Below, piece by piece: positions 24,054 to 39,346 of a DNA stretch of 48,283 nt (position 1 is its first letter; every line of letters starts with the position of its first letter). The position numbers were made by a program, and so were the translations under genes. The stretch comes from Parcubacteria group bacterium Greene1014_15 (GTDB taxonomy: Bacteria; Patescibacteriota; Minisyncoccia; Phycocordibacterales; VMGT01): positions 1-48,283 of the forward strand of contig VMGT01000020.1 in the NCBI GenBank assembly GCA_007376725.1. The letters run 5' to 3'. The notes under the pieces were generated by a model. The model was not told the DNA's origin, did no database searches, and saw only the letters and a list, made by a program, of their open reading frames with translations.

Positions 24054-24665
24054 TCACCTTAATCTCGAAGGCATAGCATCGTGCATGTGAGGCAGACTTG
24101 AGCGACTATAAGAAAACAACATTATTTCATCTCGATCAAACCATGACGCAATTTCCCGGCACGCCTCTATGGTATTCTCGGATGCATGCACCATGTTGAC
24201 GCACGCTTTGCCCGGTATATTTTCAATCGCTTTACCAAGAGAAAAATCTCCACGTATTGTACCGGGGACAGCCTCGTACGGCAACGTAGAACCAACCATC
24301 TCGCGCACACGCGCCATAGCATCGGTTCCGCACAATACCATTTTGATCATCGGCCCACTTTGAAAATATTCTGTGATTGAACACTGCAGATCAAGCCCAA
24401 TACTTCTCGCATCAGTTTTTCTGTGCAGCGTTTGCGGGTCAATATCCATAGATGCATACGACCTAAGCATTTTTTCGCCGAGAGCAGTAATACTTTCGGT
24501 CGTATTTGCAAAGTGCCGAGAAATCTGAACCGGCGTCGCCATGATCATCCGCATTCCGACAATGTGAATCAATGCACGTTCGAATCGGCCAATAATGTCT
24601 CCAACGATGCCGCGTTTAACTGCGTCAGGCTTCAAAAGCACCAGGGTCATTTCATTCCTGTCCAC
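24054..24665 (-). CDS. ndk: nucleoside diphosphate kinase-like protein, copy 1
   Basis: 203 residues from GTG 24665, with SD AAGGAG about 6 bases upstream. NDK motifs: TLVLLKPDAVKRG, MIKMVLCGTDAMARVREMVG, PGTIRGDFS and the phosphohistidine site NMVHASENTIE. The usual HGSD is HASE here. A segment of about 45 residues (around 65-110) is inserted compared with the 135-150-residue enzymes. NDK transfers the gamma phosphate between NTPs and NDPs through the His. A paralog lies 0.8 kb away (25427-26044). Confidence 0.88.
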   Translation of the reverse strand: MDRNEMTLVLLKPDAVKRGIVGDIIGRFERALIHIVGMRMIMATPVQISRHFANTTESITALGEKMLRSYASMDIDPQTLHRKTDARSIGLDLQCSITEYFQSGPMIKMVLCGTDAMARVREMVGSTLPYEAVPGTIRGDFSLGKAIENIPGKACVNMVHASENTIEACREIASWFDRDEIMLFSYSRSSLPHMHDAMPSRLR

Positions 24666-25426: not shown

Positions 25427-26044
25427 TCATTCCAGTATCTTATCCAAATTCACGTCGTAGAGAATGCTTTCCTGCACAAGGCGATAGTCGACGAGTTGCT
25501 CTTTTTTAAACCAGTGAGCTATTTCGCGCTCTGCTTCCTGTACAGAACCAGATGCATGGACGAGATTGCGTACCGAACGCCCATCACTATCTGCCATTTG
25601 ATAGGAATCGAGCACGTAATCTCCTCGAATGGTGCCGACATCCGACGTAAGCGGCTCAGTTCCACCTGTAATCTTGCGGACAATTTTCACCGCGTGCGCG
25701 CCTTGCCATACCATGCATACTGCGGGACCACTCGACATATATTTTTTAAGTCCGGCAAGTATCGTCTCGCCCAGTTTCAACGGATCTTCAGACGGTGGTG
25801 TCAAATTCTTGCTCCGATACCCTTCAATCGTTTTTTTACCGACTGCTTCAAGCCAACCCGCATCGAGCATGTAATGTGCTTCAGCATGTGAGAGCGATGG
25901 CACAATCATTTTTATCGCAACGAGTTTAAGACCAACACGCTCATAGCGCAGGATGATTTCACCGATAAGTGACCTCTGCACCCCATCGGGTTTTATAATA
26001 GCGAGCGTGCGTTCCTCTTTGTGATGTTTCTTTTCTTTCTCCAT
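25427..26044 (-). CDS. ndk: nucleoside diphosphate kinase, copy 2
   Basis: 205 residues. TLAIIKPDGVQRSLIGEII, VCMVWQGAHAVKIVRKITGG, VGTIRGDYV and the active-site NLVHASGSVQEAE. Like copy 1 it has an inserted helical segment (about residues 55-105, including EGYRSKNLTPPSEDP) and an extended C-terminus (DYRLVQESILYDVN). It has an extra basic N-terminus (EKEKKHHKEER). The active-site His is present in both copies, so both may be active; one may be specialised. Confidence 0.9.
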   Translation of the reverse strand: MEKEKKHHKEERTLAIIKPDGVQRSLIGEIILRYERVGLKLVAIKMIVPSLSHAEAHYMLDAGWLEAVGKKTIEGYRSKNLTPPSEDPLKLGETILAGLKKYMSSGPAVCMVWQGAHAVKIVRKITGGTEPLTSDVGTIRGDYVLDSYQMADSDGRSVRNLVHASGSVQEAEREIAHWFKKEQLVDYRLVQESILYDVNLDKILE

Positions 26045-26087: not shown

Positions 26088-28844
26088 CTACACCGAAACC
26101 TTTCGATATTTTTCCATTATTTGCGCCTCAATTTCCGCACGATCGCTGCCATAGAGATGGTACGAAACTTCCTTCAAACTCTCGACTTGACGAGCATAGC
26201 CCACCGGAGGCGCTATCGTTTCAATATTAAACGGTTTTGCTGGCTTACCATTAATAAGCATGCGCAGATATGCATTGCGATTGTCGAGATTCATGAGATC
26301 GTTCGCCTTAAAAACAGGTTCGAACTGCTTTTCCAAAAACTCAGCGTCTTCCGCGCCAACACGAAATGCCGCGATCGATCCCACGTTACCAAACACAGCA
26401 TTTTTGATCTTTTCGTCAAGTTGCGCAATAAACTGGTGCGCCACATTCAAACTCAACCGATATTTTCGCGCTTCCGAGAGAATGGTCGCAATTGAATCGG
26501 TCGTAATATTCTGAAACTCGTCGAGATAGAGATAAAAATCTGATAGTTCCGAACCAATGGCATCAACACGAGAGAGCGCCGCCATCAGAATTTTTCCAAC
26601 GAGAATAAGACCGATCAGGCGTGAGTTAATATCGCCAAGCCTGCCTTTCGAGAGATTGACGAGAAAAATTTTCTTTTCATCCATAATACGCCTGAAGTTA
26701 AACGACGAACGTTCCTGGGCAATAATTGGGCGCATAATGTCATTTGAAAGAAACACGTCAAATTTACTCGTGATGTAGGGCACCATGTTTTCAAGAGATG
26801 ATTCGCCTCCCGCCTTAGTTGCAATTTCGCGCCAAAACTGCACGATGATTGGATTCGTGCACATCGCGAGTTTTTTGTCCCGAAACGCTTTGTCTGCAAG
26901 AACGCGTGACACTTCAAGAAGCGTACTGCCCGCGTTCGGATCATCAATCACGAGCATCGATGCATTGCGAAAATACTGTTCGAAGATCGGACCACCAGTC
27001 GTTTTCAGATCAAACAGCTTATCAAAAATTGAAAACAACTCGTTCACGACGAATGTCTTCTGCTCCGGAAACCGCGCATCATACTCGAGCATATTGAGTG
27101 CCATCGGCCGTGGCGTATATGCAGGATCAAAGTAGATAACGTCGCCATACCGCTCTGGCGGAATATATGAAAGAATATCAACAATGTCAGAACCATGCGG
27201 ATCAATCATGCAGACACCCGCGCCTGCCGCGATATCCTGTGCAATCATATTTTTGAGAAGCGTTGTCTTTCCTGTTCCTGTCTGACCGATAACGTACATA
27301 TGTCGCACGCGATCTTCTTTTGTCATATACGCTTTCGTCGTCACATTGCGATACGTATTCACGCCAAGCAATGTGCCTTCGGTCGGCATCTCGTGCGGCG
27401 CGGAACTCGTACCCGCTTTCGCCTGTTTGAGATGCGGCGATGACTTAATACCCTTGGGCGGAAAATGCACCATGGTGGTCAATTCACGAATAGAGAAAGG
27501 TAAACTTCGGGAAGTATTGAATTCTCGAAAAGAAAACTGATGGAGCATTTGCGCGAGCGCGCCTTTGCGCAGACGCTCAAATCGCAGCGTGTTTCCTCCG
27601 GTATGACTAAACTGATTAAACGCCGACTCCATTTCAGAGAGTATTTCTCCGGCGCGTTGTTCATTTCCCGCAGATGTGACAAGCCGGATATTACTCATGA
27701 CAATCGGACTTGCGATTTTTTCGCGGAGAATTTCAAGCGCAGTCTGGTCAATGGTCGGCTGACGAGACATGCCGTCTTTGTCCTTGCTTTTTTCATCTCC
27801 AAAAACCATTTCACGGAGCACATGAGAAATTTTACCCCCCATCGTCACGGTACTCTCCACCGCTTTTTTGACAGGAACGCCACGTTCGATCTTTTTAATC
27901 ACCTCTTTATATTTGTCGGCATAATCCAGAGCTCCGCGCGGATGAAAAACAAGCTGCAAAGCCGCCCCTTCGCCATCACGTTCGATCTTTGAAAATGAAT
28001 TGATGATCACGTTGAGCGGATCGTAATCAAAATGTTCATAGAGTTTGATTGGGTATGCCGTGCTTTTAGCGAGTGTCATGGAAGACGCGGCAGCTGCTCC
28101 TTCTTCATTAAAAATATTGTAGTCGTCTTTGTGCACCTCAATCTTGGCATCATGAAATATGGAGAGTATGTGCTTTTCAAAAAGATCGCGCTTGTGGTTT
28201 GGAACGGCGACGTAAAAACTCACTTCTTCGCTGAAGTTTGGCAACGCGATCTCGATCGTAAAATAGTCATTCCCTCGCGTTCCGTCATTACCAACAGAGA
28301 GCATGCCGGAATAAAACTGCTCCATTGAGGAAATAAGCTCTTTGAGAGTCCTCTCTTTTTCGTCCGTCGCATGTTCCGGCAACTGCACTTCGTAGAGCGT
28401 CATGTGTGTCGCTTTCCATTCCGGTCCGCCCTCCTTCATACCCGCAACAGCAATTCCTTGGTTCACATACTGGACAAGGTAGCGATGAAAATCATCTTCC
28501 AAATGGGGGTTATGCATCTTATCGAGCACGGAGAGCGTATTCCGCAATCCTTCCTCGACAAGCACCGCGAGCAACTCTTCCATCTGCTTGTCATGTTCTT
28601 CGGGCGCAAGATCAAGCGCAATTTTTTCCACATGACGCTCGGGCATGTGGTGCACCGGAGCAAGTATGCTCTCCGGCGGAAACGCTTTATACTCCTCAAT
28701 TTGATTCTTGATAATTTCTCCGCGATGCGGCTCGCGGCCGCGATCAAGAAGTTCTTTTTCCTTTTGCGCCACCTGTTCGCGCAAAAAAGAAATCTCCTCT
28801 TGGGGCGAGCTAAATTTTACCTGCTCTTCTTTTATTGGTTCCAT
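26088..28844 (-). CDS. TraD/VirD4-like DNA-pumping ATPase
   Basis: 918 residues. The N-terminal ~480 residues lack known motifs, start with a coiled coil (EEISFLREQVAQKEKELLDR) and have no clear membrane helices. The ATPase domain has HMYVIGQTGTGKTTLLKNMI (Walker A, ~516-535), MIDPHGSDIVD, FYLYLDEFQNITTDSI (Walker B, ~770-785) and NVAHQFIAQL (~800). This arrangement matches coupling-protein/TraG-type motors that feed DNA or protein into type IV secretion machines. It follows the giant gene with a 16-base gap. No other T4SS gene is here; CPR bacteria often carry such motors without a full system. Confidence 0.85.
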   Translation of the reverse strand: MEPIKEEQVKFSSPQEEISFLREQVAQKEKELLDRGREPHRGEIIKNQIEEYKAFPPESILAPVHHMPERHVEKIALDLAPEEHDKQMEELLAVLVEEGLRNTLSVLDKMHNPHLEDDFHRYLVQYVNQGIAVAGMKEGGPEWKATHMTLYEVQLPEHATDEKERTLKELISSMEQFYSGMLSVGNDGTRGNDYFTIEIALPNFSEEVSFYVAVPNHKRDLFEKHILSIFHDAKIEVHKDDYNIFNEEGAAAASSMTLAKSTAYPIKLYEHFDYDPLNVIINSFSKIERDGEGAALQLVFHPRGALDYADKYKEVIKKIERGVPVKKAVESTVTMGGKISHVLREMVFGDEKSKDKDGMSRQPTIDQTALEILREKIASPIVMSNIRLVTSAGNEQRAGEILSEMESAFNQFSHTGGNTLRFERLRKGALAQMLHQFSFREFNTSRSLPFSIRELTTMVHFPPKGIKSSPHLKQAKAGTSSAPHEMPTEGTLLGVNTYRNVTTKAYMTKEDRVRHMYVIGQTGTGKTTLLKNMIAQDIAAGAGVCMIDPHGSDIVDILSYIPPERYGDVIYFDPAYTPRPMALNMLEYDARFPEQKTFVVNELFSIFDKLFDLKTTGGPIFEQYFRNASMLVIDDPNAGSTLLEVSRVLADKAFRDKKLAMCTNPIIVQFWREIATKAGGESSLENMVPYITSKFDVFLSNDIMRPIIAQERSSFNFRRIMDEKKIFLVNLSKGRLGDINSRLIGLILVGKILMAALSRVDAIGSELSDFYLYLDEFQNITTDSIATILSEARKYRLSLNVAHQFIAQLDEKIKNAVFGNVGSIAAFRVGAEDAEFLEKQFEPVFKANDLMNLDNRNAYLRMLINGKPAKPFNIETIAPPVGYARQVESLKEVSYHLYGSDRAEIEAQIMEKYRKVSV

Positions 28845-28860
28845 ATTTTACTATCAAATT

Positions 28861-31800
28861 TTAGTGTCGCCGCGTCAGTCCTCGAAGCATATTCCCGAGC
28901 TGCACTGCAACTTCCCTGCGTGTTGTGCCATCGCCGGTTGTATACCTGTCAAACATCCCCCGCATTTCAGCAACAGCCGACTTGCTTGCAAAGGCTAGCG
29001 ATTTGCGCTCGTTCGCGCCGATTCTCGGTTTTCCCTCGACTTGAGGAACCATCCGCTGTGCGTAATAGTCAGCAAATGTTTCAGCATCGAGCTGCTTGCT
29101 CATGACAAGCTGAAGAAGTCTGCGCGCTCGTTCGGTGCTATCTCCTGGTCCAGTATCTAGTATACGGTTGAGCGGTATTGCTTTCATCGACCAATATATT
29201 GATTCTTGACTGGTTCCTTCACGGAACATCGTTTTGTTGTCCAATCGTTCTATGGCAGATCGCTGTTCCGGAATCTTCACTTCTCCCGCAGGCTGTTGGT
29301 CGGGAATTCTCGCTGCAGGAGGCGCGGCTTGTTGTTCAAGTACCGGCTGCCCCTGCCCTCCGAGAAGTTGATCGGCCGTTTGTGGCCCAATAGGGGGCAC
29401 AGCCATCATATTTTGCATCCGTACCCGAAGCAACAGGAGCGCACTATTTTGCTCGGCGAGTGTGCCACCCGCAGCTTTTTCAAGCGCCGTCTGCATACTC
29501 GCAACTGTTCGCGCGTCAGCGCCCGTGAGCTGCCCGTAATACTCGGAAAATGCCTGGCGGTCCACATCACCAGTTTTCACCTTGTTTATCAAATCATCTG
29601 TTCGAGAGATGGCATCGCCAGCGCCTGTACGCACAATCGTATCAAAAAATTGATGCTCTGCGACACGTGTCCGTTCTCGAATCTCTTGCAGGGCTCTTAG
29701 AACGGCAGGATCAGTACTTGGCTTTTCCGTTTTCGTTTTTTCCTTCAGTCTCTCTTCCGCTTCTTCGACTACCGCAGCATGTTTTCCCTGATGCGCCGCC
29801 GCATCTTTCGTGAAATAGTCTTTGCCGACGACCTCTACTTTCTTGTTCGCAATATCAATTTTAATTGCGTTGTTTCCGTCTCTTTGTACATACTCCGCAT
29901 ATCCTGCCGCGTCTGGAGAATAGCCTTTTTCTTGGAGAGTTTGTGCCAAGGCAGTATCATTCTTCAGAACGGTGCTTGCATACTCTCCCCAGAGTGTACT
30001 CGCACGATTCGTAGCAAAGTTTGCAAGCTCCTCTTCCTCACCATTCCAACCAAGACTTTTCGCTACGCCTTTGTTGTCCGCAATATAGTCCGAGATCACT
30101 CGCTCGGTCGGCAGGTTATTCATGTGCCGCACTACTTCGTTTGGCACAACCTCGACGCTCGGAACCGTTCCGCTTGTTTCGGGAATAATCGGCGTTTGTT
30201 TTGTCGTCACTGGAGGCGCTTTTACTTTCGGGGTCGTTTCCGTTACTTTAGGCTCGCCTTGCTGCCCTTCTTGTGGCACATTCCCATTTTCTACAGGCAT
30301 TTTTGGAGTTATTTCAACTGGAGCTGCAGATTTTTGTCGCACGGTTTCTTCAGACACAAACTGCGTCATTGCTGCTTTCTGTTCAGCGCTAAGCGATGGA
30401 TCTTCAAGTCTCTTGTGAAGAACTTCGAGCGCTGCTTTTTTGTCTTTTTGACCAGAAAAAAACTCTTGATACTGTTGGTACGCAAGCGCCGTCTTTCCAA
30501 CTTGACTCTCGTTTGTTTGAGGTGTAGCTGCGTCAACCTCAGCCGCACGTGGCATAGCGGGTGAAGCTTCACCCGTAAAAAGATGGGAAAGTCCCTTATA
30601 TGCCTGCCACGCACTTTCAGCTGTAAACACCCATCCAAATACTTGACGCAATTTCTCTACTTGCACTGCTGCAAGTCCAAACGAATGCACTGTGCCATTT
30701 TCCTCTACAAGTCTTGCATACCTTTCGAGGGCTCCCTTTCGCCTACGAAAAACTTCTGCTTTCTTTTCTTCCGTAGCTGCATTTAACACTTCAAAATGAA
30801 TATCCATAATTTTCTGCACTATTGCTTCCCGCTCAACCCCAAGCTGCCGTAACTTTCCCATCCAAGTTTGAGGCAACATTTTGCGCCCTGCGTCAGGTAT
30901 TTTTTCAATACGCTTTATCAATTCAGCCGGCAGTGTTTTCAGATACTCATTACCTATTTGCACCCCAGTTGGTTTCTCACCGCCACTTTTATTCTTCGCT
31001 TTATCGTACAGTGCCCATGCTTCATTGAGCGTCTTTCCACCGCTTGTTCTCGCGATATACTCCTCTTCAGATTCATCTTCTTTTTTGCGATAATCCTCAT
31101 CTCCACGAGTCTTATTCGCTACCTTAATTTCCTCGTAATCTTTAAATGTACCGACAACTTCACCCGCGACAAGCGCGGCATACATGGCAGCGCTGATCGG
31201 CAAACCAAAAAATGCCGCAACAGGACGGCCAATACGCGCGGCAGCACTCGCAATAACACCTCCGCTCTGTAGCTTTCTCCCGACATTCCAATCCATTTTC
31301 AAACCTGCATCTTTTTTCAACTTGTCCAATTTAGCAGCGCTTAACATCGCCTGCGCCTTATCCGCACTTTTCGCCCACCGGTGAGCGAACGCATCGTATA
31401 GTGGACTGCTCTGCCGTAACTTTCCGGCCGTTTGAGTAATGCTACTTTTTTCGGTACCTTGCAGACCTCTTGATTCCAAAAGCGTGCCCGACATTAATTC
31501 TCCCGTCCATTTCTTGAGATACAACCCCCAGTTCAAAAAATTCATGCTCAATTTTTCGCGCTCCTTCTCGGAAAGTTCATCATATATTTTTTCAATGTCT
31601 TTTTTTGCCTCCTCGACTATTTCTTTCGGCGTCCGGGGAGCTTCTGGTGCAGGAGCAGGCGCTCCATCCGGTGTGACGTGAACAGTTGTATCTGGGGGTG
31701 TTTGTTCGGCAGGGGCTGCTGCGGTGACGGCCGGAGTCGTTGTTGTTTCAGCTACCGGAGCAACTGGCGTAGATGCGGCCTCCTCCCCCCGGGCATGAAT

Positions 31801-33390
31801 CGCTTTCCCGAGAGCAAATGCTTCTTCAACCAATTTTGCTTTTGTCGCACCGCTATCGCTGTCGCGCTCTCTCATCAGCGCACAAGTGTGCTTCAAATCT
31901 TCTGACATCCCATCTCCGCCCAATTTCCCTTCATTATATGCCATCTGAACAAACACGAGCGTCCTACGGTCATTGCGCGGGTCAAGGGGATCTTTTTCCG
32001 GCATTAAAAGCGCGCGAATTGCATTGAATTTCTTGAGTTCGCTGTCTTTGGCAACCGAAGCTGATTCGAGGGAAGCCTCGGCGACAGCTGGCACAGCCGC
32101 ATCGCCAATTAAAGCCCGCTCAACGTGTTCTGCTTCTTCCGGCGTCATCTCCAACACAGGAATACTGTAGTCTTCACTCGTTTCTTCACCCGCCGGAGCA
32201 CCACCGTCAAAAACAGTTCTCCACGCTTCGTCGAGTTCTTCCTGTTCTCTTTTTTCTGCCTCGGCATCTGTAAGTTCCTCCGGTCCTGTCATCGCTTTAA
32301 TCTCCGGAGATGGCGCTCTCGCATACCGATCTTCGTACAATTTCCGAAACAAAGCGATCTCATCTGCATCAAGAGGAACATTTTTCCTCTTGTCCACGAT
32401 CATCTTGAGCAAATAAGCGTCGTCAAAATGTCCAAGAACGTCTGCGGCTGCCGCTTCTGCTTCAAAGAGTGCAGTAAGTTCAGGCTTCTTTTTTTCCTCA
32501 AACTCACGAGCAGCAAGTTGTTTCTCCATTTCCCTCTGTTTTTCTTCTTTAAACTCCTCATCAAAAATCCACGCACCTGTGGCATTTTTTTCACCTTGCT
32601 TTCCATCTGTGTCACTCACACTTCCCGCCGCACGGCCGACAACTCCTTTTCTTTCGGGTGTCCACGAACTCGGGAAAATCTTGTCCCAAGCAGCATCTGT
32701 TTCTTCCTTCGTTCCCTGCTCGGATGCTGTTGAAACAGCAGTCTCAATGATTTTGACGACTTCGACTGGCGGAGCCTTCACTGGTTGCTTTTCTTCAGAA
32801 AAAACAAAAGCGTCTCTCGTCATCTCGCCATACACCTTATCGAAAAACTTCCGCTCCGGACTATCCATTGAAAACGCTCTTGCACCCGCGCCGGAAATCG
32901 ACGTTGATAAACTTGCGCGAACTTCATCGTGCGAGGGAATTCGTCCGCCAAACTCTTTCATCAGATTCTTCGTGTGCGCGATTATATCTTTACGAAGTTC
33001 TTTTTCTGCAGCAGATTCAGGCAATGGTTTAACTGGATTCTCTTTCGGCCGGTTAAGTTCACTTTGGGCGTCTTGCGCTTTAAGTGTTTCTATACCCTTC
33101 TCGAGTCCCTCCACTAGATAGGGGCCAAGATCATTCGCTGCCACAGGTTCTCCAAGTATAGGTTCGGCAGGAAGAGAATCTACGGGAAGACCAACCTCTG
33201 CAGGCAATCCCGCAAAAACATCCGGTCCGCTCGCTCTTGAATTTATACCTTCCGAGAGCGTTTGTGCTTTGTTATCGTTTATGGCCTTTCCTTGTCGTGC
33301 GCGCTCCTCAAGCGCCTTTTTCTTCATTTCAGCAAGAGCGGCTTCCTTTACAGGATCAATAAGAGGATTAAATTTATCGAAGTCATTCAT
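28861..33390 (-). CDS. giant multi-region protein, partner of the TraD-like ATPase
   Basis: About 1,509 residues from ATG 33390. No family recognised. Residues 1-550: charged, Glu/Lys/Ala-rich, with predicted long helices. About 560-600: a Pro/Ala/Thr-rich linker (PAEQTPPDTTVHVTPDG). About 715-745: the only strongly hydrophobic stretch (ARIGRPVAAFFGLPISAAMY...), a possible membrane insertion. About 930-1150: helical, then a Pro/Thr linker (TTPKVKAPPVTTKQTP). The C-terminal part holds two related segments (about 1247-1330 and 1397-1509) sharing FSEYYGQ/FADYYAQ, MQTALEKA/..SAVAEMRGMF and a final helix. The proximity to the motor suggests a structural or secreted component; this is inference. 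Confidence 0.85.
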   Translation of the reverse strand: MNDFDKFNPLIDPVKEAALAEMKKKALEERARQGKAINDNKAQTLSEGINSRASGPDVFAGLPAEVGLPVDSLPAEPILGEPVAANDLGPYLVEGLEKGIETLKAQDAQSELNRPKENPVKPLPESAAEKELRKDIIAHTKNLMKEFGGRIPSHDEVRASLSTSISGAGARAFSMDSPERKFFDKVYGEMTRDAFVFSEEKQPVKAPPVEVVKIIETAVSTASEQGTKEETDAAWDKIFPSSWTPERKGVVGRAAGSVSDTDGKQGEKNATGAWIFDEEFKEEKQREMEKQLAAREFEEKKKPELTALFEAEAAAADVLGHFDDAYLLKMIVDKRKNVPLDADEIALFRKLYEDRYARAPSPEIKAMTGPEELTDAEAEKREQEELDEAWRTVFDGGAPAGEETSEDYSIPVLEMTPEEAEHVERALIGDAAVPAVAEASLESASVAKDSELKKFNAIRALLMPEKDPLDPRNDRRTLVFVQMAYNEGKLGGDGMSEDLKHTCALMRERDSDSGATKAKLVEEAFALGKAIHARGEEAASTPVAPVAETTTTPAVTAAAPAEQTPPDTTVHVTPDGAPAPAPEAPRTPKEIVEEAKKDIEKIYDELSEKEREKLSMNFLNWGLYLKKWTGELMSGTLLESRGLQGTEKSSITQTAGKLRQSSPLYDAFAHRWAKSADKAQAMLSAAKLDKLKKDAGLKMDWNVGRKLQSGGVIASAAARIGRPVAAFFGLPISAAMYAALVAGEVVGTFKDYEEIKVANKTRGDEDYRKKEDESEEEYIARTSGGKTLNEAWALYDKAKNKSGGEKPTGVQIGNEYLKTLPAELIKRIEKIPDAGRKMLPQTWMGKLRQLGVEREAIVQKIMDIHFEVLNAATEEKKAEVFRRRKGALERYARLVEENGTVHSFGLAAVQVEKLRQVFGWVFTAESAWQAYKGLSHLFTGEASPAMPRAAEVDAATPQTNESQVGKTALAYQQYQEFFSGQKDKKAALEVLHKRLEDPSLSAEQKAAMTQFVSEETVRQKSAAPVEITPKMPVENGNVPQEGQQGEPKVTETTPKVKAPPVTTKQTPIIPETSGTVPSVEVVPNEVVRHMNNLPTERVISDYIADNKGVAKSLGWNGEEEELANFATNRASTLWGEYASTVLKNDTALAQTLQEKGYSPDAAGYAEYVQRDGNNAIKIDIANKKVEVVGKDYFTKDAAAHQGKHAAVVEEAEERLKEKTKTEKPSTDPAVLRALQEIRERTRVAEHQFFDTIVRTGAGDAISRTDDLINKVKTGDVDRQAFSEYYGQLTGADARTVASMQTALEKAAGGTLAEQNSALLLLRVRMQNMMAVPPIGPQTADQLLGGQGQPVLEQQAAPPAARIPDQQPAGEVKIPEQRSAIERLDNKTMFREGTSQESIYWSMKAIPLNRILDTGPGDSTERARRLLQLVMSKQLDAETFADYYAQRMVPQVEGKPRIGANERKSLAFASKSAVAEMRGMFDRYTTGDGTTRREVAVQLGNMLRGLTRRH

Positions 33391-33457: not shown

Positions 33458-33483
33458 AAACAACCGCCTTCCGGCAGTTGTTT
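33458..33483 (-). terminator. terminator hairpin of map
   Basis: AAACAACCGCC and GGCAGTTGTTT pair with one mismatch around TTCC. On the minus strand TCTCCACATTTTT follows. It overlaps the map stop codon. Confidence 0.6.
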
Positions 33484-34252
33484 AGAACAGAGTCAGTATT
33501 TCAGGAACATCATCCGTAATGAGAATCGTATGCTCAAAGTGAGCGCTCCGTTTCCCATCAACTGTTTTCCATGTGTATCCATCGCTATCAAGCTCAATAT
33601 TCCGCGTTCCCTCATTAAGCATCGGCTCTATTGCAAGCACCATGCACGGCAAAAGTTTTGGTCCTTTCCCTACAGTTCCGACATTTGGAATGTAGGGCTC
33701 TTCGTGCACATAGTGTCCAACACCGTGCCCACCAAGTTCTTCAACAATACCGTACCCAAGCGGCCGGGCGTATGATTCAATCGCCGCACCAATATCTCCG
33801 ATCCTTTTGCCGCCTTTCGCTGCGTTAATGCCACACATAAGCGCTTCTTCTGTAGTATACAAAAGTTTCTGCGCCGCGCGATCAATCGTGCCAACAGCAA
33901 CCGTCTTTGCCATATCTACAACCAAACCTCTGTGTATAAGGCCGATATCAATGCCAACAATATCGCCATCAGCAAGTATTTTCGGATGTTCGTTTGGGAT
34001 ACCGTGTACCACTTCATCGTTTACTGAAACACACAGTGTCGCAGGAAACGGACGGTTCGCGCCATATGGTTTGTAGTTGAGAAATGCGGCTTTGTCGCCT
34101 CCTGCCACAATTTGATCATGCGCAATTCGATCAAGAACAGCCGTACTCACGCCAGGATGCACTTCTGCTATCACTGTATTGAGAACAACCGCGAGGCGGC
34201 GTCCGGCTTCGCGCAAAATCTCTATCTCATCCGGCGTCTTTACCATGCTCAT
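33482..34252 (-). CDS. map: methionine aminopeptidase, type I
   Basis: 256 residues (254 if ATG 34246 is used). Metal ligands visible: DIVGIDIGLIHRGLVVDMAKT (both Asp), GHGVGHYVHEEP (His), VLAIEPML (Glu) and the final AHFEHTILIT (Glu). It removes the initiator methionine from new proteins. Last gene of adk-pyrH-map, which normally follows secY. An element (34273-34429) lies between it and pyrH. Confidence 0.96.
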   Translation of the reverse strand: MSMVKTPDEIEILREAGRRLAVVLNTVIAEVHPGVSTAVLDRIAHDQIVAGGDKAAFLNYKPYGANRPFPATLCVSVNDEVVHGIPNEHPKILADGDIVGIDIGLIHRGLVVDMAKTVAVGTIDRAAQKLLYTTEEALMCGINAAKGGKRIGDIGAAIESYARPLGYGIVEELGGHGVGHYVHEEPYIPNVGTVGKGPKLLPCMVLAIEPMLNEGTRNIELDSDGYTWKTVDGKRSAHFEHTILITDDVPEILTLF

Positions 34253-36675: not shown

Positions 36676-37365
36676 TTATTTCCTCTTCACATTCTTTGAA
36701 CCCTTTGGTCTTCCACCCTCTCGCAAAGTTGCATGCAATTTGTGTTCATCAACCATCATATTCACCCAGTCATTAGAACCAAAAGGCGCACCTTTGTTCA
36801 CCGATGTCCTGATACCTGTGGTTATATCTTCTTTGTCTTGCGTATTCACCCATGCACCGTAATTCGTGGGTAATGGTGTGGGTCCTTTTGAAAGCATCTT
36901 CTGCAACTTTGGAGTACCTCTAGCTCTGATCCACCCGCTCCCCCATCTCCAGTCCTCTACCTTGCGCACAAGACCTGCACGCACCGGATTGCGTTCCACA
37001 TATTTAATGACTGTCAGTAAATGAGCGTCTTTTTGGATAATGAAAGACTTATATCTTCCTTGGTAGAGCGGGCCAGTGCCGGTTGTCTTGGTAACGGTGT
37101 GCATTCTCCGCGTGTGTGCATTGGTGAGTAGGTGCATGAATGTTTTCATGTCCCCTTCTTTCTCGGGGAACAACACGAGGTGCCAATGGTTGGGCATGAG
37201 AGTGAATGCGAGTACATGCATGCCTGTTTTCTCTTGTGTGCGAATGAGCAAATCCATGAACAGTTGGTAGTCTTTTTCGTTTCTGAATATGCGCGTTCTA
37301 CCAACGGCGCGATTGATAACGTGATATGGAGTTTGTGCGATATCTACTCGTGCTTGGCGCGCCAT
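36676..37365 (-). CDS. REP-associated tyrosine transposase (RAYT, Y1-type)
   Basis: 229 residues. Family motifs: YHVINRAVGR near the N-terminus, the HUH-type LMPNHWHLVL (about residue 60), GPLYQGRYKSFIIQ, VIKYVERNPVRAGLV and a basic tail GGRPKGSKNVKRK. RAYTs nick and rejoin single-stranded REP hairpins; the catalytic His pair (HWH) is present and the Tyr is likely in the region after residue 95. Arrays with GGGGACAGTCACCG flank the gene on both sides, inverted, which are probably its substrate. Appears intact. Confidence 0.9.
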   Translation of the reverse strand: MARQARVDIAQTPYHVINRAVGRTRIFRNEKDYQLFMDLLIRTQEKTGMHVLAFTLMPNHWHLVLFPEKEGDMKTFMHLLTNAHTRRMHTVTKTTGTGPLYQGRYKSFIIQKDAHLLTVIKYVERNPVRAGLVRKVEDWRWGSGWIRARGTPKLQKMLSKGPTPLPTNYGAWVNTQDKEDITTGIRTSVNKGAPFGSNDWVNMMVDEHKLHATLREGGRPKGSKNVKRK

Positions 37366-38074: not shown

Positions 38075-39346
38075 TTAATACTCCCGCATTGAAACTTGCG
38101 CTTCGATTTTGCGGATGAGATCGAGAACAACGGAAACGGCAATCAAGAGCGCCGTGCCGCCAATAGAGAGTGCTGTAAGACCGGTAAGCGCTTGCATGCC
38201 AATTGGCAGAACAGCAATAATACCAAGAAAGAGAGCGCCAACAAGCGTAATCCGTGTAACGATTTTTCCGATGTATGTCGCCGTATGATACCCCGGACGA
38301 ACACCGGGAACAAATGCGCCGCTCTTCTGCAAATTTTGCGAGATTGAATCGGGATCAAAGGTCACTGCAGTGTAGAAATAGGTGAACAAAACAACAAGAA
38401 TAAAGTACATGGAGCCATAAAATAGTTGATTCGCGAGCAATGCGCTCACAAAAGTCGATAGTGAACTGATCAGCTCATTGTCGATGTTGGAAAGAAAATT
38501 CACGATCATTTGGGGAAAGAGCAGTATTGAAAGAGCGAAGATGATCGGAATAACACCCGCTTGGTTAAGACGCAGCGGTAGATACGTAGAAATACCACCC
38601 GTTACCTTGGAGCCGCGAACACGTTTTGCGTAGGTAACCGGCACCGGGCGTTCCGCCTCCGTCACCGTCACCACACCCGCGATCACAGCGAGCGCTGCAG
38701 CAAGAAAGCCGAGATAGAGCGGCAACTGTTCTGGAGAAAACGAAAACACCAGTTGGCTCGCCACTTGCGGCAAACCGGCAACAATACCTGCAAAAATAAT
38801 GAGCGAGGAACCGCTGCCGATGCCAAATTCGCTCATGAGTTCGCCAATCCATGTGAGCATGATAGACCCGGCAGCAATAACTGCGATGTTCGCTGCAAGA
38901 TTGAGAATGGGCAAATCAACAATAATTCCCTGCCGCTGCAAAATAACGATAAAACTAAATCCTTGAATGATCGAGAGCGGAACCATAAGAAGCCGCGAGT
39001 ATTGTGCAAACTTTTTTCGCCCCGCTTCCCCTTCCTCGTGGTACATCTCTTTGAGCTTGGGGAACATCATCGTTAAAAGCTGCATGATGATTGACGCCGT
39101 AATGTAGGGACCGACGCCAAGCATTACGATAGAAAGATTCGAGAGGCCGCCGCCGGAAAAGATATTCAAAAGACCGAGAAATTGATTCGAAGCAAAAAAC
39201 TGCTCGAGCGCAATCTTGTCAACGCCGGGAATTGGAATCGTCGCCATCAAACGGAACACTGCAAGAGCGCCAACAACAAACAATATACGGTTGCGCAGTG
39301 AACGATCTTTGAGAGCGAGTTTGAATTTAGAAAATAGACTTTGCAT
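38075..39346 (-). CDS. secY: preprotein translocase subunit SecY
   Basis: 423 residues, ten predicted helices. Signatures: VFRLMATIPIPGVD, the plug region LNIFSGGGLSNLSIVMLGVGPYI, ITASIIMQLLTMMFP, YAKRVRGSKVTGG (cytoplasmic loop), LPLRLNQAGVIPIIFA and VRPGYHTATYI. Forms the SecYEG channel. Follows rplO by 42 bases in the usual spc order. Confidence 0.96.
   Translation of the reverse strand: MQSLFSKFKLALKDRSLRNRILFVVGALAVFRLMATIPIPGVDKIALEQFFASNQFLGLLNIFSGGGLSNLSIVMLGVGPYITASIIMQLLTMMFPKLKEMYHEEGEAGRKKFAQYSRLLMVPLSIIQGFSFIVILQRQGIIVDLPILNLAANIAVIAAGSIMLTWIGELMSEFGIGSGSSLIIFAGIVAGLPQVASQLVFSFSPEQLPLYLGFLAAALAVIAGVVTVTEAERPVPVTYAKRVRGSKVTGGISTYLPLRLNQAGVIPIIFALSILLFPQMIVNFLSNIDNELISSLSTFVSALLANQLFYGSMYFILVVLFTYFYTAVTFDPDSISQNLQKSGAFVPGVRPGYHTATYIGKIVTRITLVGALFLGIIAVLPIGMQALTGLTALSIGGTALLIAVSVVLDLIRKIEAQVSMREY

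Follow-up and report, generated by a model that had tools for sequence, protein, structure and literature searches.

The window analysed here, meaning the whole stretch of DNA, comprises 48,283 nucleotides of contig VMGT01000020.1 from Parcubacteria group bacterium Greene1014_15. This is a tiny parasitic-type bacterium with a genome of 1.17 Mb in 55 contigs; among named Patescibacteria records, those of Taylorbacteria, Zambryskibacteria and Nomurabacteria are closest to it. Between the map gene and the first nucleoside diphosphate kinase (NDK) gene, the minus strand carries two genes, one encoding a giant protein and the other a motor ATPase (Table 1). As the first-pass annotation had proposed, they are 16 bases apart and the giant has about 1,510 residues; both reading frames are open, and the giant counts 1509 aa from its ATG. 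Among the ten neighbours scanned, no secretion gene was found except the housekeeping SecY. The two NDK genes lie in near-tandem downstream of the motor. We also noticed that an IS200-type Y1 transposase separates secY from adk, although the region otherwise consists of housekeeping genes, and that a similar-looking protein lies near a second motor (L003:3931-4614).

Table 1 Features of the giant-motor locus and its surroundings (window coordinates).
Feature	Position	Strand	Remarks
Giant gene	28861..33390	(-)	1509 aa from ATG 'MNDFDKF' at 33390; longest ORF start 33423
Giant residues 1-540, charged N-terminal region	31771..33390	(-)	conserved only in sister genome G002
Giant residues 584-936, core A	30583..31641	(-)	family-defining conserved region; profile A7, in which the window's own sequence is included, matches the own genome at E 1.6e-95
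Hydrophobic patch, giant residues 724-742	31165..31221	(-)	mean hydropathy 1.92
Second Pro/Ser/Thr-rich linker, giant residues about 1005-1085	30136..30378	(-)	from composition
Giant residues 1087-1193	29812..30132	(-)	common with motor-linked relative in G154, 30%, E 2e-10
C-terminal repeat copy 1, giant residues 1252-1287	29530..29637	(-)	
C-terminal repeat copy 2, giant residues 1410-1445	29056..29163	(-)	
Motor gene	26088..28844	(-)	918 aa, HerA/VirD4/VirB4-class ATPase, without predicted N-terminal TM helix
Motor residues 1-136, helical N-piece	28437..28844	(-)	separate upstream gene in deeper lineages
Motor residues 137-478	27411..28436	(-)	aligned with VirB4 N-terminal domain in structure model
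Motor residues 479-918, ATPase domain	26088..27410	(-)	VirB4/TrwB fold
Walker A GQTGTGKT, motor residues 520-527	27264..27287	(-)	conserved columns in motor alignment
Walker B-type DEFQ, motor residues 775-778	26511..26522	(-)	invariant in 46/46 aligned motors
map	33482-34252		
First NDK gene	25427-26044		
Other NDK gene	24054-24665		
IS200-type Y1 transposase	36676-37365		
SecY gene	38075-39346		

The giant could not be placed in any family by Pfam (E ≤ 1), NCBIfam (best E 0.56) or PADLOC, in line with its earlier description as uncharacterised. The single hydrophobic patch and the two Pro-rich linkers described earlier were also recovered: one clear patch was found, merging with a weaker one at residues 712-730, and composition gave Pro/Ser/Thr-rich stretches at about 541-590 and 1005-1085. 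The duplicated C-terminal domain stood only in part. The two repeat segments, which were picked after reading them, aligned with a score of 68, above all of 1000 shuffles (mean 27.5, maximum 55), but a self-comparison of the giant by BLAST, run at E ≤ 10 with the low-complexity filter, returned only the identity and no repeat. The giant is fast-changing and probably membrane-anchored.

The motor belongs to the HerA/VirD4/VirB4 ATPases, a known class. Its ATPase half exceeded the Pfam cut-offs of DUF87, TraG-D_C, T4SS-DNA_transf and TrwB_AAD_bind, a HerA central-domain match was obtained as well, and in the T4CP test PF02534, PF10412 and PF12696 were above their cut-offs. Its first 480 residues had been left unassigned; they can now be divided into the N-piece and a second part that, by the structure model, is probably a VirB4-type N-domain (residues 137-478). 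The model was built with AlphaFold2 from an alignment of 46 motors (mean pLDDT 85), and its best full-length Foldseek match was VirB4 (TrwK of R388, E 3e-15), with TrwB behind it (E 1.7e-10). On the ATPase domain VIA-align placed the two level, with Z 29.5 for the VirB4 ATPase (338 aligned, 3.0 Å) and Z 29.0 for TrwB (367 aligned, 3.6 Å). Full-length VirB4 (8rtd_O) aligned with motor residues 137 to 893 at Z 19.5 over 575 residues with an rmsd of 20.6, which indicates that the domains are differently oriented. At the profile level, hhalign of the motor N-domain against a Patescibacteria VirB4 profile gave nothing, and searches of the own genome with PF03135 and PF19044 did not pick up the window's motor.

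The motor can be compared with two known systems. Like the VirD4/TrwB coupling proteins (T4CP) of Patescibacteria, it has the ATPase domain with the T4SS-DNA_transf, TrwB_AAD_bind and TraG-D_C matches and is located away from virB4. Unlike them, it lacks an N-terminal TM anchor (no hydrophobic segment before residue 529 at a threshold of 1.2), and it has the extra domain aligned with the VirB4 N-domain, a fused N-piece and the giant next door. With VirB4/TrwK/TraC the model shares the overall fold along residues 137-893, N-terminal domain included, whereas the genome's own VirB4 (about 610 aa) is encoded elsewhere, on contig C7. Deeper motor relatives, such as those at L079, L164 and L168, do start with a TM helix, and in these lineages the N-piece is a stand-alone gene of ~125-150 aa. 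The window's motor has its N-piece fused on and no longer has the TM helix. The idea that the giant replaces this lost anchor was ruled out, since the TM-bearing motors of G518 and G552 have giants too.

The HerA match raises another reading of the pair, in which the motor, a HerA-like translocase, handles DNA inside the cell for segregation, repair or defence, with the giant as the anchor of DNA on the envelope. It would fit VIA-align, where structures of HerA and DndH were in the top rows, and PADLOC returned mad8 for the window's motor (E 1e-12) and for the second motor (L003:9040-11085, E 9e-16), although both mad8 matches are probably due to the common ATPase domain. We regard internal DNA handling as quite improbable, because the TrwB/TraG-D_C and T4SS-DNA_transf families scored over their cut-offs, full-length VirB4 aligned with the model, and no NurA-like or nuclease partner was found among the window neighbours scanned.

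The motor is widespread. A first scan of the genome collection kept 80 motor relatives, 40-78% identical. In the order, the motor N-domain profile matched 389 of 397 genomes at E ≤ 0.001, and about 309 had a strong match (best E below 1e-40; counted by hand as 389 minus 80), while the other 80 N-domain matches may be paralogues. Within the own genome, a second, shorter VirD4-like ATPase (681 aa, 43%) was found on contig C19, together with a VirB2/VirB3/VirB4/VirB6-like cluster on contig C7. The earlier statement that no other secretion genes lie nearby holds for the neighbours scanned, SecY aside, but cannot be extended to the genome. Reading of the C7 sequences suggests VirB6-like, PrgI/VirB3-like and VirB4 pieces and two VirB2-like pilins, and the genes near the cluster look like dnaA, dnaN and yidC. 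PF19044 confirmed VirB4 in this cluster and matched in 36 of the 41 genomes of the same sample. The VirB4-like gene on C7 (L120:13446-15466) is split over two frames into ORFs of 487 and 212 aa, and a short sequence is repeated where the frames part; this may be a frameshift or an assembly error. Since a T4SS-like cluster exists elsewhere in the genome, the motor need not act alone. For Patescibacteria, the accessible part of PMC12102498 reports 5,713 coupling proteins of the VirD4 type from 2,918 genomes, about two VirD4/TrwB-type proteins per genome by its totals, with only 148 of them near virB4. For the VirD4-like ATPases away from virB4, it suggests possible exaptation and leaves their role open.

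We then turned to the giant's family, which is defined by core A, a helical region of ~350 residues that includes one or two hydrophobic stretches and is flanked by variable regions. By direct search, a relative was found in one of two other genomes of its family. Growing core-A profiles raised the number of order genomes from 7 of 247 to 12 of 397, with 12 of 383 in the class, and gave 22 different carrier genomes in all. Before the A7 profile was made, BLAST with three independent relatives (L102, L104 and L105) had reached E values of 5e-5 to 2e-12. Many of the relatives show weak hydropathy, and the membrane topology of the giant is tentative. A structure model of the relative in G471 was low in confidence, with a mean pLDDT of 58 and about 75-89 in most blocks of the core; it matched nothing in the PDB at E ≤ 0.001, and VIA-align gave coil segments only. 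Core A was modelled only within the whole G471 protein, and the model does not demonstrate a new fold.

In nine of the 22 genomes, spread over six families with different flanking genes, a core-A giant adjoins the motor on the same strand (the window's genome G000, and G001, G002, G035, G154, G266, G471, G518 and G552). The two genes are 1.5 kb apart in G001 and enclose a DUF5663 gene in G471. Seven of the nine have the giant upstream of the motor; in G266 and G471 it is downstream. Eleven giants are clearly away from the motor, and the loci of G429 and G463 are truncated in part by contig ends. For unlinked genes in a ~900-gene genome, we estimated that about 0.1 of 22 would be adjacent by chance, shared ancestry being ignored. 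The pairing exceeds chance, and in this respect the first reading of the locus is supported. Constant pairing was not observed, since half of the giants (11/22) have no motor nearby, which goes part of the way towards the refutation set out with that reading, although 11 of the 12 giant-bearing genomes of the order have a strong motor match somewhere; the twelfth, G236, reached only E 3e-11. Conversely, most genomes of the order have the motor without a giant (about 309 against 12 of 397). The pair had been tentatively interpreted as a minimal DNA or protein transfer device. A role in moving DNA or protein fits the class of the motor, but a minimal device of two genes is not supported by these distributions.

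A second large-protein family was found in the same position. This family, core B, has glycine-rich hydrophobic stretches followed by a Pro/Ala linker and a tail, and it lies beside the motor in 13 of the 80 motor loci of the first scan. Its profile matched 17 of 383 class genomes, of which we looked at 14, the weakest three (G474, G411 and G588) being outside this set; the 27 core-B rows count two genomes twice (L042 = L189, L054 = L190). In nine of the 14, core B and the motor share a strand and are at most three small ORFs apart; in three they are not together, and G583 and G651 end at a contig edge. Next to the core-B giant, 13 of the 14 loci carry a DUF5663-type gene (~100-aa protein). 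Eight of these small proteins were scanned with Pfam, and DUF5663 (PF18908) was recognised in all but the one encoded on contig C7 of the own genome. The order giant, DUF5663, one to three small ORFs, motor was seen in G657, G645, G572, G626 and G704, and in all of these but G645 a small ORF matched the motor's N-piece. The window, with its giant followed by a motor with fused N-piece, has the same order minus DUF5663, which was not found at its locus; one core-A cassette contains DUF5663 as well. No homology between the two cores was detected: growing alignments gave hhalign probabilities of 2.4% or less (one of these comparisons kept minimum-to-maximum envelopes, so that some rows are longer than the core), and the profiles gave no cross-hits. 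The Campbellbacteria protein at L054 was first grouped with core B at an hhalign probability of 69%, and then confirmed by the core-B profile, of which it is a member.

Cores A and B replace each other at the same locus. One case is that of the core-A gene of G471 (813 aa) and the core-B gene of L054 (839 aa), orthologous genes with the same neighbours on both sides. Their products are 41% identical over 119 residues at the N-terminus and 57% identical over 187 at the C-terminus, and differ in their centres. Within one genus, G383 (core A) and G088 (core B) have the tail in common (28.6%, E 1e-25), and the same downstream genes, UvrD and rRNA-dimethylase, follow. In G374 (core A) and G047 (core B), the giant occupies the same gap after the EF-G gene without sequence similarity. 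Giants of both core types lie between the EF-G gene and a ~396-aa gene, probably EF-Tu by its length and position (L144:6539-10609 and L107:2463-10277), which suggests that these giants may be highly expressed.

A LysM-like module was found behind core A and behind core B, but in none of 109 other large ORFs; in this count, all four core-A hits below 1e-3 and one of the seven core-B hits are seeds of the model. The LysM matches in giant relatives (E 0.0027 and 0.0014) remained below Pfam's cut-off, the LysM-like segment in the G471 model folds as strand-helix-helix-strand, and a search of a single LysM-like segment against PDB sequences gave nothing. The resemblance to LysM wall-binding proteins concerns some relatives only; the window's giant has neither a Pfam LysM domain nor a LysM-like segment.

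Since giant and motor are paired in varied gene orders, and the membrane part is swapped in place, the two look like partners. We conclude that the giant probably serves a T4SS-type ATPase as an exchangeable partner in the envelope. A different explanation is that the giant is a general structural protein of the envelope or cytoskeleton with no special tie to the motor, and that adjacency reflects ancestry and insertion into highly expressed housekeeping loci. Half of the giants do lie elsewhere, for example beside EF-G, and the map-ndk context of the window's pair is kept at many motor loci without a giant. Such an origin would have to account for adjacency that persists in six families although flanking genes differ and the order can be reversed, and for the presence of what looks like an unrelated type of protein in this position beside the motor, so we consider it rather unlikely.

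On the partnership reading, we tentatively propose, at somewhat less than even confidence, that the giant is an envelope-side accessory that tethers or gates the motor, and that the window's pair is a reduced, fused form of a cassette of giant, optional DUF5663 protein, optional separate N-piece and motor that occurs in several Patescibacteria lineages. The motor would be a cytosolic hexamer docking at the inner membrane. The giant would keep a long charged arm in the cytosol and its helical core in the membrane, and would extend through the Pro-rich linker to C-terminal domains outside, where some relatives may hold the wall with the LysM-like module. By tethering or gating the motor at the envelope or wall, it could couple ATP-driven transport of DNA or protein to an envelope site. 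The recurring DUF5663 protein would be a small adaptor, absent at the window's locus. The giant is optional and replaceable, which argues for a modifier of a widespread core ATPase and not for half of a device.

The main rival to this tether sees the giant as cargo: the motor, by itself or via the T4SS, would export it as a large protein resembling an adhesin or effector, with DUF5663 as its small chaperone. Many secretion substrates are encoded next to the ATPase that recruits them, and fast divergence, lengths from 609 to 1599 aa, core swapping and optional presence would all suit a substrate, as would the small acidic neighbour and the large disordered parts of the giants. The location of most Patescibacteria VirD4-type coupling proteins away from virB4, as given in the accessible part of PMC12102498, is also compatible with it. 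Conservation, however, falls on the membrane-like core in the centre of the giant and not on a signal at its N- or C-terminus; one swap replaced the middle and kept the two ends, and domain scans of the giant and its relatives found no known effector or toxin domain. We therefore regard cargo as unlikely, though both it and the tether predict contact between giant and motor.

It is conceivable, but we would not expect it, that Patescibacteria possess a second envelope machine besides the VirB4 T4SS. In this machine, an ATPase of VirB4 fold that also shows VirD4 features would work with an N-subunit, with DUF5663 as adaptor and with a wall-reaching giant membrane protein that has two exchangeable, unrelated membrane cores, perhaps matched to host or cargo. 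If the pair does work as proposed, it would enlarge the small set of machines through which such reduced cells might contact their hosts. As far as our searches went, neither the giant family nor its exchange with core B has been described; the literature searched describes no giant partner of such a motor and does not mention DUF5663. The present analysis provides a set of partners (core-A or core-B giant, DUF5663 and N-piece) for one widespread type of VirD4-like ATPase, and the core swap at one locus offers a natural experiment on the role of the giant.

Two further gene arrangements were seen around motors. In G173 (L200:5098-9902), the motor has two consecutive large proteins downstream of it, and a separate DUF5663-type gene follows each of them. 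In deeper lineages, many motor loci (L064, L066, L068, L071, L168, L191, L194, L197, L201 and L202) have next to them, on the opposite strand, multi-membrane-span proteins of roughly 500-770 aa (families F58 and F166).
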